Positions 523-18,958 of a DNA stretch of 27,541 nt are shown here, one piece after another. How positions within the stretch are numbered: position 1 is the first letter of the stretch; every line of letters starts with the position of its first letter. The notes beneath the pieces are model-generated. The model ran no database searches, was not told the DNA's origin, and was given only the letters and a program-made list of their open reading frames with translations. A program made the translations under genes and the position numbers. Source of the DNA: Parvularia atlantis (lineage: Eukaryota > Opisthokonta > Rotosphaerida); NCBI GenBank assembly GCA_943704415.1, contig CALSCO010000515.1:1-27541 (forward strand), given 5' to 3'.

Positions 523-612
523 ACTGCCGCAGACTGTCTCGCTTGCAAACCTGGGCTTGTGCACGCTCGCGCCACTTTTGCCGCGCTCGCACGCACACAC
601 ACACACCTGACC

Positions 613-1518
613 ATGGTCGTCGACGCGCCGCACGTCCGGGCCGCGGGCCTCAAGCTGGGCGCGCACGGCGGGCTCGCGCTCGACGAGCTGACCGAGGTGC
701 GCGCGCTCGACAACGTCGCGGCGGGCGTCCACGGCCTGAGCGTGCTCTTTGTCAACATCTACGGCATCCGCTGTGAGACCGACGCGGCCGACTGGGTGCT
801 GGTGGACGCGGGCGTGCCGCTGTCGGCGTGGCGCATCCGGCGGTGGGCGCACGCGCGCTTTGGCGAGACGCCGCCGCGGGCGATCCTGCTGACGCACGGG
901 CACTTTGACCACACGGGCGCGCTGGTGACGCTGGCGGACGAGTGGGACGTGCCCGTGTACGCCCACCGCGACGAGTTCCCGTTCCTGACCGGCCACCAGT
1001 CGTACCCGGCGCCCGACCCGAGCGTCGGCGGCGGGTTCATGTCGCGCATCTCGCCGCTGCTGCCGGTCACCAAGCCGATCGACGTCACCGAGCGGCTGTG
1101 CGCGCTGCACGGCGAGGGCGGGATGCTGCCGGCCTCGGTCCTGCCCGGGTGGCGCTGGCTGCACACGCCCGGGCACACGGCTGGCCACGTCAGCTTCTTC
1201 CGCGAGTGGGACCGCACGCTCATCGCCGGCTGCGCCCTGTGCAACACCAAGTTTGAGTCGTTCTTCGCGCTCGCGCAGCAGACGCCCGAGCTGCACGGGC
1301 CGCCCGCGTTCAACACGGTCGACTGGACCGCCGCCAAGCACTCGGTCGACGTGCTCGCCTCGCTCCGCCCGCGCACCGTCGCCGCCGGCCACGGCCCGTG
1401 CATCGCCGGCCCGGACGTCGCGCGCAAGCTCACGCTCTTCGCCGCCGACTTTGAGCGCCTCGCCATCCCCGCGCACGGCAAGTACGTGGCCGAGACCGCG
1501 CCGCACGCGCCGGCGTGA
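613..1518 (+). CDS. Metallo-beta-lactamase-fold hydrolase with altered metal site
   Basis: Single-exon gene of 301 residues. The start at 613 (ccATGg) is preferred; an in-frame ATG at 559 would only add a repetitive leader. The protein has the MBL signature THGHFDH (residues 94-100), the second metal histidine in HTPGHTAGH (H188) and the last histidine in AAGHG (H260). Its pattern after the third motif (ALCNTKFESF, then a GPPAFNTVDW-like stretch) resembles small bacterial YflN-type MBL proteins. Members hydrolyse thioesters, lactones or similar bonds with a dinuclear metal; the substrate here is unknown. Oddly, the usual Asp that bridges both metals, in an AGDA context in relatives, reads AGCA (Cys207). 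No signal peptide is seen, so it is probably cytosolic. The next gene begins within about 33 bp. Confidence 0.88.
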   Translation: MVVDAPHVRAAGLKLGAHGGLALDELTEVRALDNVAAGVHGLSVLFVNIYGIRCETDAADWVLVDAGVPLSAWRIRRWAHARFGETPPRAILLTHGHFDHTGALVTLADEWDVPVYAHRDEFPFLTGHQSYPAPDPSVGGGFMSRISPLLPVTKPIDVTERLCALHGEGGMLPASVLPGWRWLHTPGHTAGHVSFFREWDRTLIAGCALCNTKFESFFALAQQTPELHGPPAFNTVDWTAAKHSVDVLASLRPRTVAAGHGPCIAGPDVARKLTLFAADFERLAIPAHGKYVAETAPHAPA

Positions 1519-3399: not shown

Positions 3400-4744
3400 T
3401 CACTTGCAGATGAACGCGACCGACGGCAGCAGGCCCAGCTCGCGGAGCGACTTGCCGTAGTCCTCGGCCGTGTACGTCTTGCGGTTGAACGTCGTGACGA
3501 GCGTGACGCTCGGCAGGCCCTTCTCGAGCTGCACACGGTCGATCACCTGCGCGCATCGGCGAATGTAAGCCATCCGCGCAACGGCCGACCGGCACGCAAC
3601 GCACAGCCGAGAGCGGGTCGTCCGCACCAAACGTGCCGTTGAACGTGCCCGCGTTGTTGGGCAGGCGCACTTGCACGCGGCACTCGGTGTAGTTGGCCGT
3701 GGACGCGGTGGGCGCGGCGGCCGGCGCGGCAGCAACCGGCGCGGGCGCCTGGACGGCTGCTGCGGCGCCGCCTTGTGCTGCACACCCATCAGCGCGGCAC
3801 GGCAAGAAAGAGCGGTCGCGGCGCACCCTGCTGCTTCCTGGCCAGGCGCTCGAGCTTGTCCTGCTCGAGCTGCTGCCTGCGCGCGTGCACACACGTGAGA
3901 TGGCGAGCGCGCGTGCGTGGGTAACGACGCACTTGAGCTTGGCCTTGTACGCGTTCTCCTCGGCGCGCTTGCGCTTCTCCTCCTCAACCAGCTTGAGCTG
4001 CGCCTGCTCCTGGAACTTTTGCTGCACCTCCTGTCCGACGCGGCCCTGTTTGCGCCGGTCCGTCTCCTTCTTGAGCTGCTCCTCCTGCTCGGCGCGCTGC
4101 CGCTCCTCGCGCTTGGCCGCGAGCTTCGCCTTGAGCTTCTCGAGCTGCTCCTGCTTGCCCATCCCTCCGCATTCAGCCCATCCACGCGCACGGGGCGCAC
4201 TGCCGCACACGCCTTCTTCTCCTCCTCCGTTAGCGGCTTGATCTCCTCCGTCGACTCGGCAAAGTTCTCATGCTGCGTCCGCGCTGCGTGCAGCTGGATC
4301 GCCGCCGCGTCGCGCAGCACCTTGCCGCAGCTGCGTCACCAGCAGGTGAGTCTAATCGCGAGATGAGGCGCGACGCACTCCTCGCAACGGTACGACTTGG
4401 CGCCGACCTCGACCGGTGCGTCCTCGCCGCTGGCGCCACCCGCCGCAGTGCCTTCATCCGCTTTTTTTCCCCGGTGAGCACAGCACGGTTGAGCAGCGAG
4501 CGATCGCACTGAGCCGGTGCCCCGTGTCCTCCTTCATCGGCTCGTCAATGTCGACGTCGTCCTGGTGCTCGACGAGCCTTTGCCGGTCGGTGGCCGCGTC
4601 AGCACATCGCGCGGTGCTGATCGCCGCGCCGCACCAGTCGAGCGCCACCTGCATCCCGCGGTGCTTCGTGCGCGCCAGCGCCTTCTGCGCGCGGTTCTCG
4701 GGGAATCCCATGTCGACGAGCGCCTGCAGGTCCGTCTGGCCCAT
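3400..4744 (-). CDS. UBXN1/SAKS1-like UBA-UBX adaptor of the p97 segregase
   Basis: Eight exons (4744-4635, 4577-4510, 4460-4379, 4330-4209, 4164-3933, 3876-3827, 3777-3605, 3546-3400) give 327 residues with frame kept across seven introns of 44-58 nt. The order is typical of the family: an N-terminal UBA domain (LQALVDMGFPENRAQKAL, then DWLVEHQDD and IDEPM); a C2H2-like finger (YRCEDCGKVL, then QLHAA and TQHENFAEST); the PLTEEEKK motif; a long charged coiled coil (residues about 130-220); an Ala/Pro linker; and a C-terminal UBX domain (CRVQVRLPNN, TLVTTFNRKTY, LLPSVAFI). Such proteins bind ubiquitin chains by UBA and p97/VCP by UBX to regulate substrate extraction and degradation in the cytosol. 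It shares a divergent promoter with the ROCO-lipase gene. Confidence 0.93.
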
Positions 4745-5065
4745 GGTCGATGCGATGCCGCTGCGGCTGCGCGTCAGCGTGTCACCATTCGCCGGCACAG
4801 CGTGTCTCGCCTGATAGCGAATGATGCGCTTGTAGTAGCGTTGAAGCGTACGACGCCATGGTGTGAGTGGTGTGGCCCGAGGGCGCGGCCAGACTTCGAC
4901 TCTGATTCGTAACAAGTCATTGCCAATGTGGAAGCAACTGAAACACGTCTCCAGCCAATCAGGGCTGAGCGGGCTGATTACGTCACGGCGCATGACACTG
5001 ATTGGCTGCTTCCAAATATGGCTAATTGCCGGAAGCCGGCGGAAACGGCTAGTTCGTCGCGACTG
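4745..5065. promoter_or_regulatory. Divergent promoter: CCAAT inverted repeat around a CRE, plus CArG and ETS-like sites
   Basis: This 321-bp gap separates the start codons of the UBX gene (-) and the ROCO-lipase gene (+). It is markedly less GC-rich than its surroundings. AGCCAATCAG (4953-4962) and its exact reverse complement CTGATTGGCT (4998-5007) bracket TTACGTCA (4978-4985), which sits almost at the centre of symmetry. Another CCAAT lies at 4923-4927. On the ROCO side are CCAAATATGG (5012-5021, a perfect CArG match) and CCGGAAG (5029-5035, an ETS-like core). In other eukaryotes these bind NF-Y, CREB/ATF bZIPs, MADS-box factors and ETS factors. Only the motifs are seen here; use in this organism is inference. 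Confidence 0.6.
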
Positions 5066-6528
5066 ATGAGTGACATCCTCGTGCTGCGCGAGCTGGACGG
5101 AGCCGCGGCGGCCGCCGTCGCCGCCGCGCCGCGCGAATGGCCGCTGCGGCTCGTGCTGCGGCCGCCGGTCGCGGATAACATGCTGGCGCACACGCGCGAC
5201 GTCGAGCGGATCGTCGCGGCGATGGCGGCGCACGGCGCCGTGACCGCGCTCGAATGCGGCTCTGGTGCGCCTCGTCCCCCGCTCGCCGTGCGCCCGCGCG
5301 GTCTGACGCTGTGCCGTGCGCGTCGCAGGGATCGCCACGAGTGACGTCGAGCTGCTGCTGGCCGTGCCGACCGTGACGGCGCTGCGGCTCACGGACTGCA
5401 ACATGCAGCAGCCGCTGATAGGCACCGTCAACAACAGGGCGGCCGCGCTCGTCGCCATCGAGCTCGACTGTGCGTGCGCGTGCTGCATCCCGCGCTTCTC
5501 GCGGTCGCGCTCAACATGCGCATCGTCAGGGTGCCGCTTCCTTGAAGGCGACCCTAGCCGTCTTGGCGCGATTGCGGCGCGCGCCACGGCCCTGCGCACG
5601 CTCAGCCTCTCGCGTGCGCGCGCCGCACCCTGCAAGGCCGCGCGCTCCTCATGGTGCGCGCAGACTGCTCTGCGCTTGGCGATGGTGGCGTCGTGGCGAT
5701 CGCGCCGCTCGTGCGCCACTTGACGACGCTCAGGCTGATCGGTGCACTGCCTCAATCTGCTCGCGACATGCGCTGATATCGCGAGCGCAGGATGCGGCGT
5801 CGGCACGCCGGGCCTCGAGGCGATCGTGGGCGCACTGCCCGACAAGACGGCGCTGCAGCACGTCTGCCTCGCCCGTGCGCTGGGGGCTTTTTTTTTCACA
5901 TGCCACCGTTCGCTCACGTGCGCTCGCAGTGAACCAGATCGACCGGGGCGGCGCGGCCGTGCTGGCCAGCATCGTTCGTCGCAGCACATCGCTGGTCGAG
6001 CTTGAGCTGCGTGGTGCGTAGTACCGCACGTGAGTGGAGATATAGATTTCCGTGTGGCTGACGAACTGCGCGTGCAGGCAACGCCGTCGGCGACGATGGC
6101 GCAGCGGCGGTCTGCGCGGCCGTGCAAGGCTCGTCCATTCGCCACCTGGGCCTCGCGAGCAACAAGATCGGCGTGCAGCCAGGCTCCCTCGCTGCCGTCA
6201 GCAGCCTGCTCGCGGGAAGCGCCGAGCTGGCGTCGCTCGATCTCTCGCGTGCGTCAACTGCTGAGGCGCGATGTTGCCGACTGACCTGCTGCGCACAGTG
6301 AACAGCATCAACAGCGATGGCCTGCAGTACTTTGCGGACGCTCTCGGCGCGAGCACGACGCTCCAGTCGCTCGACCTCTCCAGTGCAGTTGCTTGCCCCA
6401 CCCTCGCGCGTGCTCACGGGCTGGCCAGGCAATCAGCTGGGCGCAACCACCGGCGACGTCCTGTTCAACATCCTCTCGCGCAACAAGAGTCTGCGCACGC
6501 TCGACCTCTCGAGTGCGCGCGAGCGCTG

Positions 6529-6563
<35 letters not shown>

Positions 6564-9500
6564 GCGCTGAGTACGCTGCGCGCGACCAGGCAACGACCTG
6601 CACAATAGCGTGCACAACGTGTTCAATGCGATCGCTGGACATCAGGGCTGCCGCCTCGAGATGCTCGCGCTGCGCAGTGCGTCCGCGTGCGCGCGGCTGT
6701 ACGCTGTCTCACTGATCGCGGCGCAGACAACGGCATCGACCGCACGGGCGTCCAGGCCGAGACCGAGATGCTGCATCATCTGTTCATGCGCAACCAGACC
6801 CTGTGCTCGCTGGACCTGTCCGGTGTGCCCCGCCCATGTGCTGTGTGCAGTGAACGCGCTGACCCTCGCGGGGCGCGCAGTCAATCAGCTTGGCCGCCAG
6901 GGCGTGCGGGACGTGCTCCTGGCACTGCGCGAGAACCGGACGCTGACGACGATCAACCTCGCCTGTGCGCTCTCGCCGCGATGCGCGGTGCGGCCCGCTG
7001 ACGCGCGGCGCGTGCGCAGTCAACGTCAACACGTTCCACACCCTTCACGGCGTGCTCCGCTTCGACGGCGAAGACAGCATGCGCGATGGCGTGGACGCGG
7101 CGCACGACGATGTGGTCGCGGCACTCGAGCTGCTGCGGCACAACTTCACGCTCACGAAGATCGACATGACTGGTGCGTGCTGACTGGTCTGCCGGGCTTG
7201 TGCGCGCCCTGACGCTTGCGGCTCCAGGCCGGTCGCCGCCGCTCGTCGAGGCCGTCGAGCGTGCACTCGGCGTGAACCGCATCCTGTGCGACGCGCTGCC
7301 CGATCTGCTGCAGCATGCGACCAAGGCCGGCGCGCTTGAGGCGCTGTTGCAAGCAGGCGATCGCAGCGCTGGCGACCTGCTGGGCCTACGTGACGGCGAC
7401 CTGGCGGAGGCGCTGGCGCAAAGCAACGGCAAGCTCGCCAATGTCGTGCTGCTGCCAACGAACGTGCAGAGCGTCGCCACCTTTGTCAAGCAGCTCTCAG
7501 GCCCGGGCCAGATCTGCTCGCTATCGGTCGTGGCCGAGTACATCAGCCTGCAGAGCCTGGGTGAGCTCCTGCAGGCGTGCGTCGGGGTCTTGCGCAAGAT
7601 CGAGCTGCCGACGCTGGCCAACCGCTCGGCGCGCGACCTGGTGCTACAGCACGCCAACAAGAGCGTTCACGTCACCTGCGGCGTCACCAGCTTTGACCTC
7701 AGCAGCCGCGTGGACACGACCAACGTCTTTCTGCTCGGCTACGGCGGCGTGGGCAAGTCGTCGCTGCGTGCGTCACTGCAGGGCGGCGTGGCCGAGCGCT
7801 TCACACACCTGCTTGAGTGTGACTACGACGTACAGCTAAGCGCGAAGGGCCGGCAGTTCAACCTGTTTGACGTGGGCGGCCAGGAGCACTACCACAGCGG
7901 CTGGCACCTTGCGCTCGAGTCAAGCCGGTCGATCTTTGTGATCGTGATCGACAGCCGCCGCGAGACGTACAAGTCGCACCTGCAGTACTTCCTGCGCCTC
8001 GTCGCGTCGCGGCGCCAGGCGAGGCGGATGGGCTCGGGCGTGGGTCTGGCGACGGAGCCGCGCGTGGTCGTGGTTTTCAGTTACAAGAGCGAGGCGTCGC
8101 GGCAGCACGGGCTGCAAGCGCGCACCAAGCAGCTGCAGGACTTTGTTGTTGAGCAGGAGGTGCTGTTCAGGGGTCAGCTCAGCATCGAGCGCATCTTCCA
8201 CTGGATGGACTGCAACAACGTGGCCGACGGGGGCCTGCCGCTCCTCAAGAAGAGACTTACCGCCATCGCTGACGAGCTCGACAAGATTGAGCCCGTCCTC
8301 GGCAGCACCGAGGTGCTTCGCAAGCTCCGCGCGGTCGTACATGCCCCGACCAAGCCCATCTTCATGTCGCGCGACGGCGTCGCGGCGTGCGCGCAAGAGG
8401 CCATGGTCAACATGACGGTGGACCACGTCATCGACACCTGCTGCGACATGGGCCTGTTCCTGCGCGTCGCGGCCACGCCAACGGGTGACGAGCTGTTCTG
8501 CGTGAACCTGCAGCGTTTTGGGCAGGAGATCCTGGCGCGCCTGTTTGAGGGAGACGTCGCCGATGACAGGCTGTTTGGGCTGCACCGATACGAACGCGCG
8601 GCGCAGCGTTGGACGCACACCCAGCTGGCGCAGCTACTGCGCAGTCACACAAACACGGGTGGCGAGCGCATCGAGGTGCTCATCCAGGCACTGCTGCGCC
8701 TCAAGCTGTGCTGCACCGTAGGCGACCGCGACAACCTGTACATGTTCCCTGCGCTCGCGCATGCCGCGCTGGACGTGAACGCGGCACGGCAGCTGGTGGA
8801 CAAGATCAAGCCGACGCCTGCCGAGGCCCAGGACGCGGGGGCGCGAGGCGAGGCTCCGCGGGCACCCACCCTCGCCATGCGCTTCAGCACGTTCATCTCG
8901 GACCCGATGGGCATGTTTTCGCCGCTCCTGCTGCCGCAGGTCGTATGCCAGCTCCTCAACAGCATGTGCACACGCAAGGACCAGCTGATCGTGTGGCGCG
9001 AGGGCCTAATCGCGGCGGTCTACGCCGACGTGCCCGCCGGCGTGACGCCACCGTCGACGCCGCTGGGAGTGGTCATCGTGCACATGCACGGCATGCAGGA
9101 GCCGCAGCGCTCGCGCGAGCGGGCAACTGAGGCGCCGCGCATGTCCATCCTCGATCTGGTCGTCTGTGCGTCCAGCACAACGGACGCAAACGACCTCATG
9201 GTCCGCGCGCACGAGGAGGTGGTGCGCGTCCTCGCAGAGTACTGGTGTGACGTGCTGTACGACGCCCTGTTGATCAAGGCCGACGTTAAGGTCGCCGAAC
9301 TGCTCAGCACGCGGCCTATCAGCGACGAGCAGCAGCGCGAGCTCGTCGTGTCCAGCATCGCCGGGCTCATGCAGCACGGCCCGTCCCTGGGACACGCGCT
9401 ACGGTGGCTGTGGAGGCCGAACCCGCTCGACAGCGAGCTGCGTGTCACGCTCACGGCCGGCCGTTTCGTGGCGGAGCTGCACGTGGTGGGCCTGCTCGGC

Positions 9501-10829
9501 AACAGCTGGTTTACCGCCGACGAGCACTTCCGCCTCGTGGTGAGCGACCACGCAAGGACCGGCGCTGTGCAGCCGGACGCGACCAGTGCCGCGATTGACA
9601 TGCTGCCGAATGAGCGGCTGCAGGCGTACACGTGCGAGCTGCCGAACGTGCGGAGGGCCGACCGAGTCTTCCTCTACACGTTCCATCGGGACGGCCGCCC
9701 GTTCCTTGCCCAGCCGCGGGTGTACGACCGCGCTTCGCTGCAGCCTGGCCCGCGGCCGTACCAGGACCCGACGTGCGTCGTGGTGCAGCCCTCTGCACAG
9801 CTGCGCATGACGGTCGCCGGCGCCGTGGTCCACGCGGGCAACACGGTCGTGGCAGCGGTGTACCGGTCGCAGCAGCTCATGCATCAGCGAGTGCAGGAAC
9901 ACAGGCAGCAACTCATCCAGCGCGAGTTGCAGGCCAACGAGGCGCGCCGCGACCTTCTTCTGCGCTCGTTCGACGGCGTCCAACTGTGCAAGGCGTCGTA
10001 TGCCCAGGGCGACTACCGCACAGGCACGCGGCTGTGGGCGTTCATGCGCGACTGGCAGAGCGGCATGATCCAGTGGCGTGACGTCGCGACAACGCAAACG
10101 AGCCTGAGCAACGCACAGCCCGTCTACTGCTACGTGCAGCGCGGCCCCGAGCTGTGGATCGCCGTGCGTGGCTCGCGGACGGGCACCGACTGGCTGCACA
10201 ACTTCAGAATGGTGCTGACGAAGCTGGACGATCTGCCGGGCAAAGTGCATACCGGCTTCAAACTGTTTGCGCTCTCCGTCCTCCACGACATCATCGACGA
10301 GAGGCTGCTGCCGGGCGACGGCCGGCCGCACTGCCCGCTGCACCTGTGCGGCCACAGCCTCGGCGGCGCGACGGCAATCGTGCTCGCGCTGCTGATCAAG
10401 ACGCGCCTGCAGTGGACCGCGCCGATCCACGTCACGACGGTCGGCGCGCCGATGATCGGCGACCCGGATCTTGTCAAGGAGTCCGACCGGCTCCTGCCCA
10501 ACGTGCACCAGTTTGTCAACGTGCTCGACCCTGTGCCGCAGCTCCTCGCCCGCGACGGTGTCGGCTTTGCTCGCCCCAGCTGCGTCCACGTGCTCGACGG
10601 CTCGGGCGAACTGCGCACGATCCTTTCGGAGAACCACCTGCGCAACGTGCTCAGCGGCGTGCGTGCGTTGTTCGTGGCGCCCTTGTCGTTCGTCGCGTGG
10701 CACTCGGTCAACACGTACTACCAATACTTCATCACCTGCACGCGCGACCTGATGGACGGCATCGATACGAAGCAGCTGATGCGCGACCAGGGCGAGGGCA
10801 TGGGCGAGGCTGCGCCCGCACGCGCCTGA
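5066..10829 (+). CDS. LRR-Roc-COR (ROCO) GTPase fused to a class-3 lipase
   Basis: Fourteen exons (5066-5264, 5329-5469, 5530-5613, 5664-5741, 5791-5874, 5930-6013, 6078-6248, 6299-6382, 6429-6512, 6590-6676, 6727-6822, 6881-6964, 7020-7172, 7228-10829) encode 1676 residues; all 13 introns are phase 1. Residues about 60-480 are ribonuclease-inhibitor-type LRRs (NxIxxxGxxxLxxxLxxNxxLxxLDLS). A Roc GTPase follows: P-loop GYGGVGKS (647-654) and switch DVGGQE (691-696); the usual G4 (N/T)KxD reads SYKSEAS. A COR-like module (about 790-985, ending near NLYMFPAL) and about 400 unassigned residues come next. Residues about 1390-1640 are a lipase_3 domain: GHSLGG with Ser1520, Asp1577 in NVLDPVPQ and His1613 in SENHLRNV. 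Roc-COR units dimerise and couple GTP turnover to an output domain, normally a kinase; here the output appears to be acyl-ester hydrolysis. No signal peptide is seen, so it is probably intracellular. Confidence 0.88.
6530..6561 (+). repeat. T32 homopolymer within an LRR intron
   Basis: A run of 32 T lies in the ninth intron (6513-6589) of the ROCO-lipase gene, between a GTGCG donor and an acceptor CAG at 6589. This intron is 77 nt while its neighbours are 46-64 nt, so the tract accounts for most of the extra length. A shorter T-rich run lies in the fifth intron (5888-5896). Confidence 0.95.
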
Positions 10830-11051
10830 TGAGCATTCGTGTGGGAAATGTGTCGATCATTTTTTGTCAGCCACGCGCACGCTCGGGGCTTCGATCTTGT
10901 TGTCTGTGGGGCATCGTCGGCGCACGCCAGCGCCACGACGTCAGTGCGACGGCGACGGCGAGCGCACTGTCGATCGCGAGCACGCGCAGGACGTCCGTGT
11001 CACTGAGGAGGGATACCATGCAGTGGTCGAGAGATACTGTGAAGTATATAC

Positions 11052-11624
11052 ATGTCATGGACTTGTCACGGCTGGGCGAGGCACGCGGCGGCGGCGGCGG
11101 CGGCGGGCGAGGCGCGCGGCGGCGGCACGCGGCGCACGGCGCCCCAGGACGACCGCGACGAGGTGGATGCGAAGCGCAACGCGGTCGAGAGCGACGCGCC
11201 GCCGGGTGCGCAGTGCTCTGGTCGCGAACAACTCGGATGACGCGCCAGCGTGCCCGTTCTGCCTGGATGCGCTGGGCGCGGACGCGGGGCGAACGCCGTG
11301 CCTGCACCCGATCTGCGCAGTGTGCGTGCGCAAGACGACCGACGCGCGCCTGTACCTGCTCGGCCTGACGTACTGCCACGCCGAGTTTGCCCGCGCCGAC
11401 CTGCTCGAGCCCGCCGCTACTGCGGCCGATACGGCGAGCACGGCGACAATGTGCCAGTCGTGCGAGGAGGTGTCCGCGACGTGTCGGCGTGGACAACGGC
11501 GGACGAGCGCGTTCACGTCTGGGCCGAGACGGCGGTGCAGACGGGCTACGGCGTGGCCGTCTCGCGCGTGGACGGCTCGGTAGCCGTCGTGAGCCACGCG
11601 ACGCACCAAGTACTCCTGTTCTGA
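11052..11624 (+). CDS. Small RING-type zinc-finger protein (model uncertain)
   Basis: The recognisable core is CPFC, then about 12 residues, then CLHPICAVC at about 11251-11325: the first six ligands of a C3HC4 RING in correct spacing. A 43-nt intron (11206-11248, GTGCG to CAG) joins an Ala/Gly-rich, acidic N-terminus (APQDDRDEVDAKRNAVES) to the RING in frame. The final C-x2-C pair could be CQSC about 42 residues later in the same frame. A different frame, ending at 11624, carries a protein-like tail (VHVWAETAVQTGYGVAVS, HQVLLF) resembling a beta-propeller strand, so another intron may lie at about 11326-11438. A TATATA at about 11045-11050, very close to ATG 11052, makes the start doubtful. 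If real it is probably a ubiquitin ligase, but partial decay is also possible. Confidence 0.4.
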
Positions 11625-11885: not shown

Positions 11886-13827
11886 TCACCCGCCTGCGAC
11901 CCCGCTGCACAGCACCACCACGTCGCCCGCGCGCCTCTGGTCGTCGCTAAAATACGAGTTGAAGAAGCGCGCGCACTGCGCAAACAGCGTCAGCGCACTC
12001 ACGGCGGCGGCGCTCTGCGCACCTCGGCGTAGCCGTGCCGCGCCAGCACGACCGCGGCGGGCCGAGTGAGTGCGTCAAAGAGCACGAGATGCGTGGGCTT
12101 GCTGGGCGCGCCCGCGAGCCACTCGTCCGTCGAGCGCACCGGGTTGTCGTAGAAGACGTCCGACTCGTCCTGGTGCCCCTGGAGCGGCGTGCCGCTGCGG
12201 CGGGTCAGCATGCGCCGCGAGGGGGGACGCTTACAGACGCACGGCGGTGGCGGCTCGCAGGTGATGAAGCGCAGGGTTGCGTCGGGCCGATGCAGGTGCG
12301 CATGGTACGGCGTCGAGTGGCACGGCATGAGGAACCACACGTGCAGCTGGTCGCGGAAACCCGTCAGCGTGCACACTCCCGCCGCTGCACCGCACAACGC
12401 ACCGGCTCGGTCGTCTGCAGTCCACGCAGGTGCTGGACGACGTCGACGACGCCGCGCTGGTGCACGACCGTAAGCGGCAGTCCTAGCAGCACCTGCGTCC
12501 CCACGACGCCGACCACCAGGATCCGGAAGCGCCCCGTCGGCAGCGTGCGGGACAGCGAGGCCGCGCCCACGCCTGCGTAGACGCAGATGACCGGCAGGAC
12601 CGGGTGCACAAAGCGGAACTCCTTGTGGCTGAGCAGCGAGTAGAGCGCGACGGTGCCCAGCGCGGCGTACGCGAGGCGGCGCGACGACGCTTGCTTGACG
12701 CCCGTGCGTACAAGCACGAGCAGCGTGTGCGCGATGAACGGTAGGCCTGCGCCCGCGGCGCGCACGTCAGCGACCGCGCCGGCGCTTAGGCATGCACGCA
12801 CCCTGGCTAAAGTACCAGTGCCACGGGTGCGCGCCGTAAAAGACCGAGACGCCCTCGAGCACATTGACGCACAGGAAGCGCCAGGGTGTGAACGTGGGCC
12901 AGCCGTAGTACGCCGAGTCGATCGTGAGGGCAGCGAGACACGCGGCTGCGCTGCGCACCGTGCTGTGAGCGACACTGCGTGCAGCAGCAGGGCGGGGGGC
13001 GCACCCGACGGGCACAACAGTGCCAAACAGCCAGCGAAGACGCGCCGCGCCGTCGGGCAGGCGCGTGAGCAGGTCGATGCCGAGCGGGATCCAGATGAGC
13101 ACGGCGGTGGGGCGCACGACGGTCGAGACGGCGGCGATGGCGAGCGCGGGCAGCGTGCGGCGGCCGACGTCGTGCGCGAGGCGCTCGTCCCACGGCCACA
13201 GGTCGAGTGCGATGGCGGTGAGGGCGGTCTCGAGCGAGTTGGCGAGGGTGCGCGTGAGCATGAACATGTTGAACATCGACGTGGCGCTAAACACGACCTG
13301 CGGCGCCGCGGTTCAGTGCGTGTGCACAAACACACGCGCACGCGCACAGACCGCCCATCGCCCGACATTGGCGCCAAACAGCCGCGTCGCGAGGCGCCCC
13401 GTGCACCAGTCGCAGAGCGCGGCGAGCACGGCCATGACGAGCCGCGGCGCGATCGTCTGTCCCCCCCACGCACGTGACGCGCGTCAGCCGCCGCTCGGCC
13501 GCTCGCCGCCCCGCGATCGGCCCGCACCAGCAGCGGCGTCGCGTCGAGGCCGGTCGCGGCGAGCAGCGCGTAGACGGGCGCGACGAGGCCGAGCGCGTGC
13601 ACGGGGCTGCGGATGCGCGCGTGCCACTCCCACGTCAGGTGCCCGTAGCCAAACACGGCCCGATGCGCCGGCTCGAGCGCCTGCCAGTACTCGTCCGGGC
13701 TTGCGGCCGTGCGCAGCAGCACCGCGTTCGCGACGCGCCACGCCAGCAGCCACGCGAGTTGCATCATGGCCGGTTGTGTGACGCGCCGGGTCCCGCCGGG
13801 TCCCGCTGATCTGCTTGCCTGCCGCAT
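11886..13827 (-). CDS. PIGB: GPI mannosyltransferase 3 (PIG-B/GPI10-like, GT22 family)
   Basis: Eight exons (13827-13528, 13456-13352, 13297-13005, 12962-12802, 12746-12403, 12346-12243, 12194-12023, 11975-11886) give 522 residues. The enzyme adds the third mannose, from dolichol-phosphate-mannose, to the GPI-anchor precursor in the ER lumen. Diagnostic motifs in order are SPDEYWQALEPAHR and GYGHLTWEW (lumenal catalytic loop with the acidic residues), LTRTLANSLET, SHKEFRFVHPVLP and VWFLMPCHSTPYHAHLH, the last specific to PIG-B rather than other GT22 enzymes. Many hydrophobic segments fit a polytopic ER protein of usual length. An in-frame ATG at 13767 (MMQLAWLL) may be the true start, since promoter-like sites sit only 7 bp upstream of 13827. 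The second intron appears to use a GTCTG donor. It diverges from the trypsin-like gene. Confidence 0.92.
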
Positions 13828-13935
13828 GGGATGTGAGTCAGTCGCGCCGTCTGACTCAGGATGAGTGTGCTTGCGCTCGCCGGCCTTTCATAAGCGCGGC
13901 CCTGCACCGCCCGCACCACCTGCACCGCCCGCACC
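13828..13935. promoter_or_regulatory. Short divergent promoter with paired TGASTCA (bZIP) sites
   Basis: Only 108 bp separate the PIG-B and trypsin-like start codons. TGAGTCAG (13834-13841) and its exact reverse complement CTGACTCA (13851-13858) form an inverted repeat with a 9-nt spacer. Each contains the TGASTCA core bound by AP-1/Gcn4-class bZIP proteins in fungi and animals. The GC-rich 13901-13935 stretch has repeated GCACCNCC. Function is inferred only. Confidence 0.5.
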
Positions 13936-17345: not shown

Positions 17346-18958
17346 ATGCAGGCCGTCGCGGCGGTTCGCCAGCGGCGCATCGCGGCGTTTGCGGCGCTGC
17401 TGGCCGTGTTCGCGCTGGGCGAGCTCGGCGTGGGGCTGTACGTGGGCAGCCTGGCGCTGCTGACCGACTCGATCCACCTCGCGAGCGACGTCGTGGCGAT
17501 GGGCATCGGCTGGATGGCGATCCAGGTCGAGCCGTGATCGGCCCGCGCGCGCTCGGTCTCGGTCTCTCATCCGCACGGTGCGCGCGCAGTACGCCAAGCA
17601 GCCCGCCAACCACGTCTTCACGTACGGCCTGATCCGCTACGAGACGCTGGGTGGCCTGGCCAATGCGTGCTTCCTGCTGGCCGTGTGCCTCTTCATCGCG
17701 ATCGAGGCCGTGCAGCGCCTGATCAACATCAGCGGTGCGCGCGGGCTGATCGCGGCGCGCGCGCACGACGCTGATCGCGCGCGTCACAGAGCTCCGCGAC
17801 ACGCAGTTGATCATCTACACGGGCTGCGCCGGCCTCCTCGTCAACACGGTCGGCCTCGTGCTCTTCGGTGTGCGACCGACGGCGCGCGCACGTGTGCTGA
17901 TCGTGGTGCCAGGCGGTCACGGCCACGGCCACGGCCACGGCCACGGCCACGGCCACACGCACGCACACAACGAGGAGCATGGCCACGCACACGACGGCGA
18001 CAACAACGACGACGACGAGGGCGAAGACGACAAGATGACGCGCGACACTGTCGCCCGCACCCCCGTCCGCAACATCAACATACAGGTGCGACACCGCTCG
18101 CAACACACTGCTGCTGCCGTGGCTCATGCGCGCGCTCAACAGGCCATCTTCCTGCACATCCTCAGCGACTTTCTCGGCTCGGTCGGCGTGATTGTTAGCG
18201 GCCTACTCGAGACGTTCCTGACGACGCCGCTGCGCTTTTACTTTGACCCGGCCGTGAGGTGCGCGGCCTCTGCGCGACTGTGCGGCGCTCACTTGAGCGC
18301 GGCCGCAGCGTCTTTATCGCCGTCGTCATCGCCTTCTCGACCGTGTCAATCATCCGCGCCACCGCCCGTATCCTGCTGCAGTCCGCACCGGAAGAACTCG
18401 GGCTGCCGATGCTGCGCCGCAAGCTGCTGCAGGTGCGCCCTCGTGTGCACTCCCGTGTGCGCGTGCTGAAGCCGTGCAGATCGAGGGCGTGCGCCAGCTC
18501 GGCAACGTGCACGCGTGGCTGTTGAACGAGCGCGTGCTCGTTGGCACGGCCCAGCTGCGCGTCGTCGAGGGCACGGACCGCGCAGCCGTGCTCACGGCAG
18601 CCAGGGTGCGTGGATGCTACTTGGCCTGCGTTGCTGATGCGTACGCGCACAGGGCCTCTTTGAGCGCTTCGGCATCCACTTCCCGACGATCGAGGTTGAC
18701 GCGTACGTGCCCGGCACGCCCGGCGCACCCGGCACGCCGCAGCGCGAGCCTCGCCACAACGAGTTCCACGACGACGACCACGACGACCACGACGACCACA
18801 GCCACAGCCACGGCCACGGCCACGGTCACGGTCACGGCCACGGCCACGGCCACGGTCATGGCCACATCGACCTGCCGATAGAGTCAAGCTTGTACGACGA
18901 CCTGGACGTGGAGGACGCGACGGAGCTGTACGACCTGCGTGAGGACGACCTGCATTGA
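17346..18958 (+). CDS. CDF/ZnT-family zinc transporter with two His-rich tracts
   Basis: Eight exons (17346-17525, 17590-17734, 17790-17867, 17913-18085, 18143-18258, 18309-18432, 18480-18605, 18653-18958) give 415 residues. Cation diffusion facilitators exchange cytosolic Zn2+ for H+ into organelles or out of the cell as dimers. Six membrane segments are visible; the metal site is present in helix 2 (LLTDSIHLASD) and helix 5 (LHILSDFLGS), both HxxxD. TYGLIRYETLGGLAN is the conserved helix 3 region. The helix 4-5 loop carries a (GH)8 tract and an acidic patch, as in many ZnTs. After the cytosolic ferredoxin-like domain (VHAWLLNERVLVGTAQLRV) a second, longer His/Gly tract precedes the acidic C-terminus. 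The first intron appears to have a GTCGAG donor. Confidence 0.92.
17915..17974 (+). repeat. His-Gly coding hexamer repeat, loop tract
   Basis: About eight copies of GGYCAC encode (GH)8, followed by THAH, in the cytosolic loop between helices 4 and 5 of the zinc transporter. The tract sits at the start of its exon, immediately after the acceptor at 17912. Confidence 0.95.
18800..18865 (+). repeat. His-Gly coding hexamer repeat, C-terminal tract
   Basis: A second GGYCAC array, with leading AGCCAC units, encodes SHSH followed by about nine GH pairs near the transporter's C-terminus. It follows a DDHDDHDDH stretch, so Asp/His and Gly/His repeats adjoin. The hexamer matches the loop tract, suggesting shared slippage or gene conversion. 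Confidence 0.95.

Follow-up and report, generated by a model that had tools for sequence, protein, structure and literature searches.

The available text of one review distinguishes ROCO proteins that consist of leucine-rich repeats (LRRs), Roc and COR alone from proteins bearing a kinase at the C-terminus and from those of the DAPK1 type (PMC6337361). ROCOs are also known with many other partner domains; according to the accessible part of a study of brown algae, three ROCOs with SM00368 LRRs carry a C-terminal DUF900 domain, as does one diatom ROCO (PMC11378527). In the portion of a further source at hand, GTP binding to CtRoco swings the LRRs about 135 degrees off Roc-COR, with monomerisation, and the LRRs of LRRK2 are wrapped round the kinase until activation (PMC11052575). 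Here we analyze a gene of the nucleariid Parvularia atlantis that lies in a stretch of 27,541 nucleotides (the window), which is the whole of contig CALSCO010000515.1 (C128) in the 16.25-Mb, 616-contig assembly GCA_943704415.1. The gene joins LRRs, a GTPase and a lipase, and this fusion is real. Our reading is that this amoeba uses a class-3 lipase as the output enzyme of a ROCO-type GTPase, with an LRR-Roc-COR switch gating the acylhydrolase, and we consider this reading evenly poised.

The gene model extends from 5066 to 10829 on the plus strand, as do all of its features described below, and consists of 14 exons encoding 1676 amino acids with no internal stop. It is supported by P0002, a 1316-residue open reading frame of a EukProt transcript with the source label Unigene9122_Nuclearia_a (Nuclearia is placed in Rotosphaerida, Opisthokonta), which matches residues 361-1676 of the model with 1315/1316 identities and is 100% identical over a 1041-residue query (residues 160-1200 of P0001). 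Because the model matches this independent sequence, LRRs, GTPase and lipase belong to one transcript, and the single chain of LRRs, Roc and lipase claimed in the preliminary description is confirmed. The sole difference, C392R, is located at 6804-6806 in a transcript-confirmed LRR exon, with Cys in the genome and Arg in the transcript; it suggests that P0002 was obtained independently, from this strain or one very close to it.

The last exon (7228-10829), delimited by its open frame and P0002, contains the LRR-Roc linker, Roc, COR, a middle region, the lipase and the stop codon; 1219 codons are open across 7170-10829, and residues 647 to 1676 do lie in this one exon, as had been stated. Upstream of it, exons 2-13 (5329-7172) form the LRR region, which scores 94.4 bits with the Pfam profile LRR_6 on the spliced N-terminal part, far above the cut-off. 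Six of these 12 exons are exactly 84 nt long, and each corresponds to approximately one repeat, which we take to be of the ribonuclease-inhibitor type; N-terminal LRRs are usual, though not obligatory, in ROCOs. Exon 1 (5066-5264) encodes an N-terminal part with no named domain, and its splice site is without transcript support. The start codon is uncertain, the ATG at 5066 being unproven and the frame open from 4913. All 13 introns are short (46-77 nt), in phase 1 and end with CAG, and 12 start with GTGC; such short introns with GTGC...CAG ends indicate that the gene is eukaryotic. The last four (6677-6726, 6823-6880, 6965-7019 and 7173-7227, in the stretch 6590-7227) are confirmed by P0002, and the nine upstream introns were placed by consensus sites, frame and repeat fit. 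The intron at 6513-6589 harbors a run of 32 T (6530-6561).

The class-3 lipase domain (9945-10727), delimited by profile, alignment and model, scores 71.5 bits with the Pfam profile Lipase_3 on the last exon (cut-off 22), and the model has an alpha/beta-hydrolase fold resembling fungal lipases and the plant phospholipase A1 DSEL. Alignment places a likely catalytic triad at Ser1520 (GHSLGG; codon 10356-10358), Asp1577 (NVLDPVP; 10527-10529) and His1635 (AWHSVNTYY; 10701-10703). The column of His1635 is H in 38/38 aligned lipases, and Ser1520 and Asp1577 are likewise common to all 38, the Ser being fixed by the search pattern; the RG-S/T motif, too, has an invariant Arg-Gly. The Ser and Asp are those of the preliminary description, but its catalytic His, that of SENHLRNV (residue 1613), was rejected, since its column is H in 0/38 lipases. 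Alignments of 6 and 39 rows both show the later His as the only invariant one; as a point to the contrary, the viral lipase L115 has His at both places in one pairwise alignment. The matches alone would allow a mono-, di- or triacylglycerol lipase, a phospholipase A1 or a feruloyl-esterase-like enzyme.

The Roc GTPase domain (7716-8264, outer limits approximate) was identified by Pfam, by our own ROCO profile (33.6 bits) and in the model. The Pfam profile gives 26.5 bits on the protein, against a cut-off of 27, and 31.4 bits, above the cut-off, in a six-frame search. The P-loop GYGGVGKS (7737-7760, starting at residue 647), the switch-I Thr and the switch-II motif DVGGQE (7869-7886) are intact; both motifs, their coordinates and the long open frame are as originally described. 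Weighing against the proposed switch, the G4 position reads FSYKSE, and because this differs from the canonical NKxD, real GTP cycling appears to be the weakest link. NKxD is not a strict requirement in ROCOs, and LRRK2 is also without it. Among 45 positions strongly conserved in prokaryote Roc domains, 21 are kept.

A COR domain appears to follow Roc directly, as indicated by a COR profile, a whole-chain alignment and the fold. The COR-only profile, which was built from 80 prokaryote ROCOs and also tested against 445 frames, scores this segment above 2000/2000 shuffles. With hhalign, the whole chain gives 99.2% over 179-691, probably driven by Roc, and the tail alone gives 0.2%. ROCO structures are the first matches of the AlphaFold2 model, a likeness of fold that is partly built in by the alignment. 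We regard the segment as a COR-like tandem in which COR-A (8265-8804), seen by our COR profile and in the model, is firmer than the probable COR-B (8853-9269), which has Pro, Trp and Gly in common with its prokaryote counterparts but is modeled with low confidence; the limits of both are approximate. The COR-like region of the preliminary description is thus upheld by our profile and the model and left unseen by Pfam, whose COR-A and COR-B profiles have no match on the protein or on P0002; of the profiles for its other two domains, Lipase_3 is well over the cut-off and Roc at it. A missing Pfam COR is not unusual, because in the accessible part of the brown-algal study the profile finds COR in 18/111 ROCO genes (PMC11378527). 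Between COR-B and the lipase lies a middle region (9402-9833) that is modeled almost entirely below a predicted local distance difference test score of 50 and in which a Pfam search found no family; it is followed by a predicted 56-residue helix (9834-10001) that continues into the beginning of the lipase fold.

In the proposed mechanism, the LRRs would either detect a ligand or fold back against the rest of the protein, and GTP binding by Roc-COR would move them and change the dimer, by analogy with CtRoco. The LRRs may restrain or shield the lipase until ligand and GTP release it, a restraint suggested by the analogous behavior of LRRs in CtRoco and by their shielding role in LRRK2. Once freed, the lipase might hydrolyze an acyl ester bond in a glycerolipid of membranes or droplets, releasing a fatty acid and leaving a lyso- or partly deacylated lipid. 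In this scheme we infer gating, substrate and GTP cycling, and the earlier phrase "GTP-gated hydrolysis of a lipid ester" is consistent with the predicted anatomy. A more specific version, in which an LRR-ROCO receptor in the sister lineage of fungi directly unleashes membrane-lipid hydrolysis, combining an LRRK2-type switch with the logic of lipase-armed fungal NOD-like receptors (NLRs), seems rather unlikely.

That two genes were read as one through an artefact of assembly or splicing has a practically negligible probability: no point in its support was found, Roc and lipase share one stop-free exon, and the independent transcript reaches from the LRRs to the C-terminus, which already contradicts such an artefact and bears out the expectation of one transcript rather than two. 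Within a genuine fusion, Roc could have ceased to cycle and serve as a fixed scaffold or dimer platform, the lipase being controlled otherwise, for example by membrane recruitment. The FSYKSE at G4, the retention of 21/45 prokaryote Roc positions and a Roc score at the Pfam cut-off speak for this possibility, whereas the intact P-loop, switch-I Thr and DVGGQE, and the equally non-canonical G4 of LRRK2, speak against it; we hold it to be unlikely, though with an appreciable share of the probability. Alternatively, the lipase part may have no catalytic role and act as a lipase-like scaffold, as EDS1 and PAD4 are held to do in plant immunity. The Asp and His at positions invariant in 38/38 lipases, the Ser found there by the search pattern and the invariant Arg-Gly argue against this, and we consider it quite improbable, although conservation of the triad is not decisive because EDS1 and PAD4 are said to retain triad residues.

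An immune or cell-death receptor of NLR-like type, whose LRRs sense danger and whose Roc-COR switch turns the lipase on the cell's own membrane, would differ from the gated ROCO lipase in purpose, not in mechanism. A single copy of the gene was found in the genome, whereas immune receptors are usually variable families; its expression was seen as one transcript only, and the fold match is common to class-3 lipases in general. NACHT and NB-ARC, the switch domains of fungal-type NLRs, have no Pfam match in P0002 up to E 10, a result with which an NLR-like manner of working would still be compatible. We regard such a receptor as unlikely, if by no means negligible.

Relatives of the putative ROCO lipase were sought by protein searches that scored only candidates sharing most words with the query (7991 for residues 160-1200 of P0001, 7994 for Roc-COR of P0002 and 1660 for the lipase region); these word-based searches found no other Roc-lipase protein, an absence that is weakly supported, as they reach only relatives with shared exact words. 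The first two queries matched the transcript itself only, and the third matched P0002 and P0003, with no other protein at E ≤ 0.01. P0003 is an unnamed protein of 1952 residues with ankyrin repeats and Lipase_3 (29% identity over 61%). In the P. atlantis genome, tblastn found no second copy, the Lipase_3 profile detected this gene and four further places, each on its own contig, and the COR-A profile detected one other contig. A second ROCO is encoded at C58:20486-21517 on the minus strand (L028:4733-7906, minus) in a frame of 1057 codons, with Roc at 40.5 bits, COR-A at 34.8 bits on the protein (cut-off 35.3) and 37.5 bits in six frames, and no lipase match. DUF900 had no match in the genome, but the controls gave none either. 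In 13 genomes picked from 80 prokaryote loci and compared by eye, COR-A was detected at 32 places (E ≤ 1e-8) and Lipase_3 at 25 (E ≤ 1e-3); the two occur together on a single contig, where the nearest pair is approximately 162 kb apart. The protein matched four plasmid records, all within the lipase part, and the second ROCO matched three ROCO-like ones. A Haliscomenobacter plasmid ROCO (L030:2408-5746, plus strand) has a C-terminal EAD11 match of 24.9 bits (cut-off 26) and adjoins DNA-methyltransferase and restriction-subunit genes. Scans of viral contigs for lipase relatives with our first, narrower profiles, which were later widened, found none.

Elsewhere in the window are a metallo-beta-lactamase-fold gene (523-1515, plus strand, 104 bits), an Alg9-like mannosyltransferase (12367-13887, minus, 116 bits), a frame with a cation-efflux match (17750-18466, plus, 28.4 bits, cut-off 26.6), a frame with a weak UBX match (3403-4335, minus, 21.2 bits, cut-off 21) and, just downstream of the gene, a weak RING-finger match below the cut-off (11251-11343, plus). 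Frames of 599 and 485 codons that lie antisense to the ROCO gene itself (4454-6253 and 9399-10856, minus) are probably a by-product of high G+C.

Among the closest systems described so far, brown-algal ROCO group 4 and the diatom DUF900 ROCO resemble this protein in having Roc and a C-terminal hydrolase-type domain, DUF900 being presumably an alpha/beta hydrolase, and group 4 also has LRRs of the SM00368 kind, which we take to be ribonuclease-inhibitor repeats. They differ in carrying DUF900 rather than Lipase_3 and in belonging to stramenopiles rather than nucleariids, and the likeness noted here is one of architecture. Class-3 lipases such as the fungal enzymes and DSEL share the fold and triad; these solved examples are not known to be preceded by a GTPase. 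The bacterial and archaeal LRR-Roc-COR proteins CtRoco and MbRoco2 are without a lipase, and the lipase profile matched 0/80 prokaryote ROCO frames at E < 0.1 (best 0.45). Fungal NLRs share the logic of repeats, nucleotide switch and lipase, but in the accessible part of the source they have a NACHT or NB-ARC switch, ANK, WD40 or TPR repeats and an N-terminal effector, which is a sesB-like lipase or a patatin (PMC4986451). The preliminary description knew of no LRR-Roc-COR-lipase, and none of the papers listed from the open-licence literature couples ROCO to a lipase; the available text of one of them holds both words without coupling them (PMC8358228). The apparent novelty is Roc-COR with a class-3 lipase, and it is smaller than thought because DUF900-bearing brown-algal and diatom ROCOs have been published (PMC11378527). 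The architecture is moreover recorded, if not described, since a sequence database already annotates P0002 with PF01764 and PF08477. Fungi and yeasts lack ROCO genes according to the part of a review available to us (PMC4104024), with which the two ROCO genes of a nucleariid, from a lineage close to fungi, stand in contrast. LRRK1 and the Parkinson's protein LRRK2 have a kinase and WD40 after COR where this protein has a lipase; how Roc-COR is coupled to the enzyme is open for LRRK2, and an easily assayed lipase output would make such coupling measurable.
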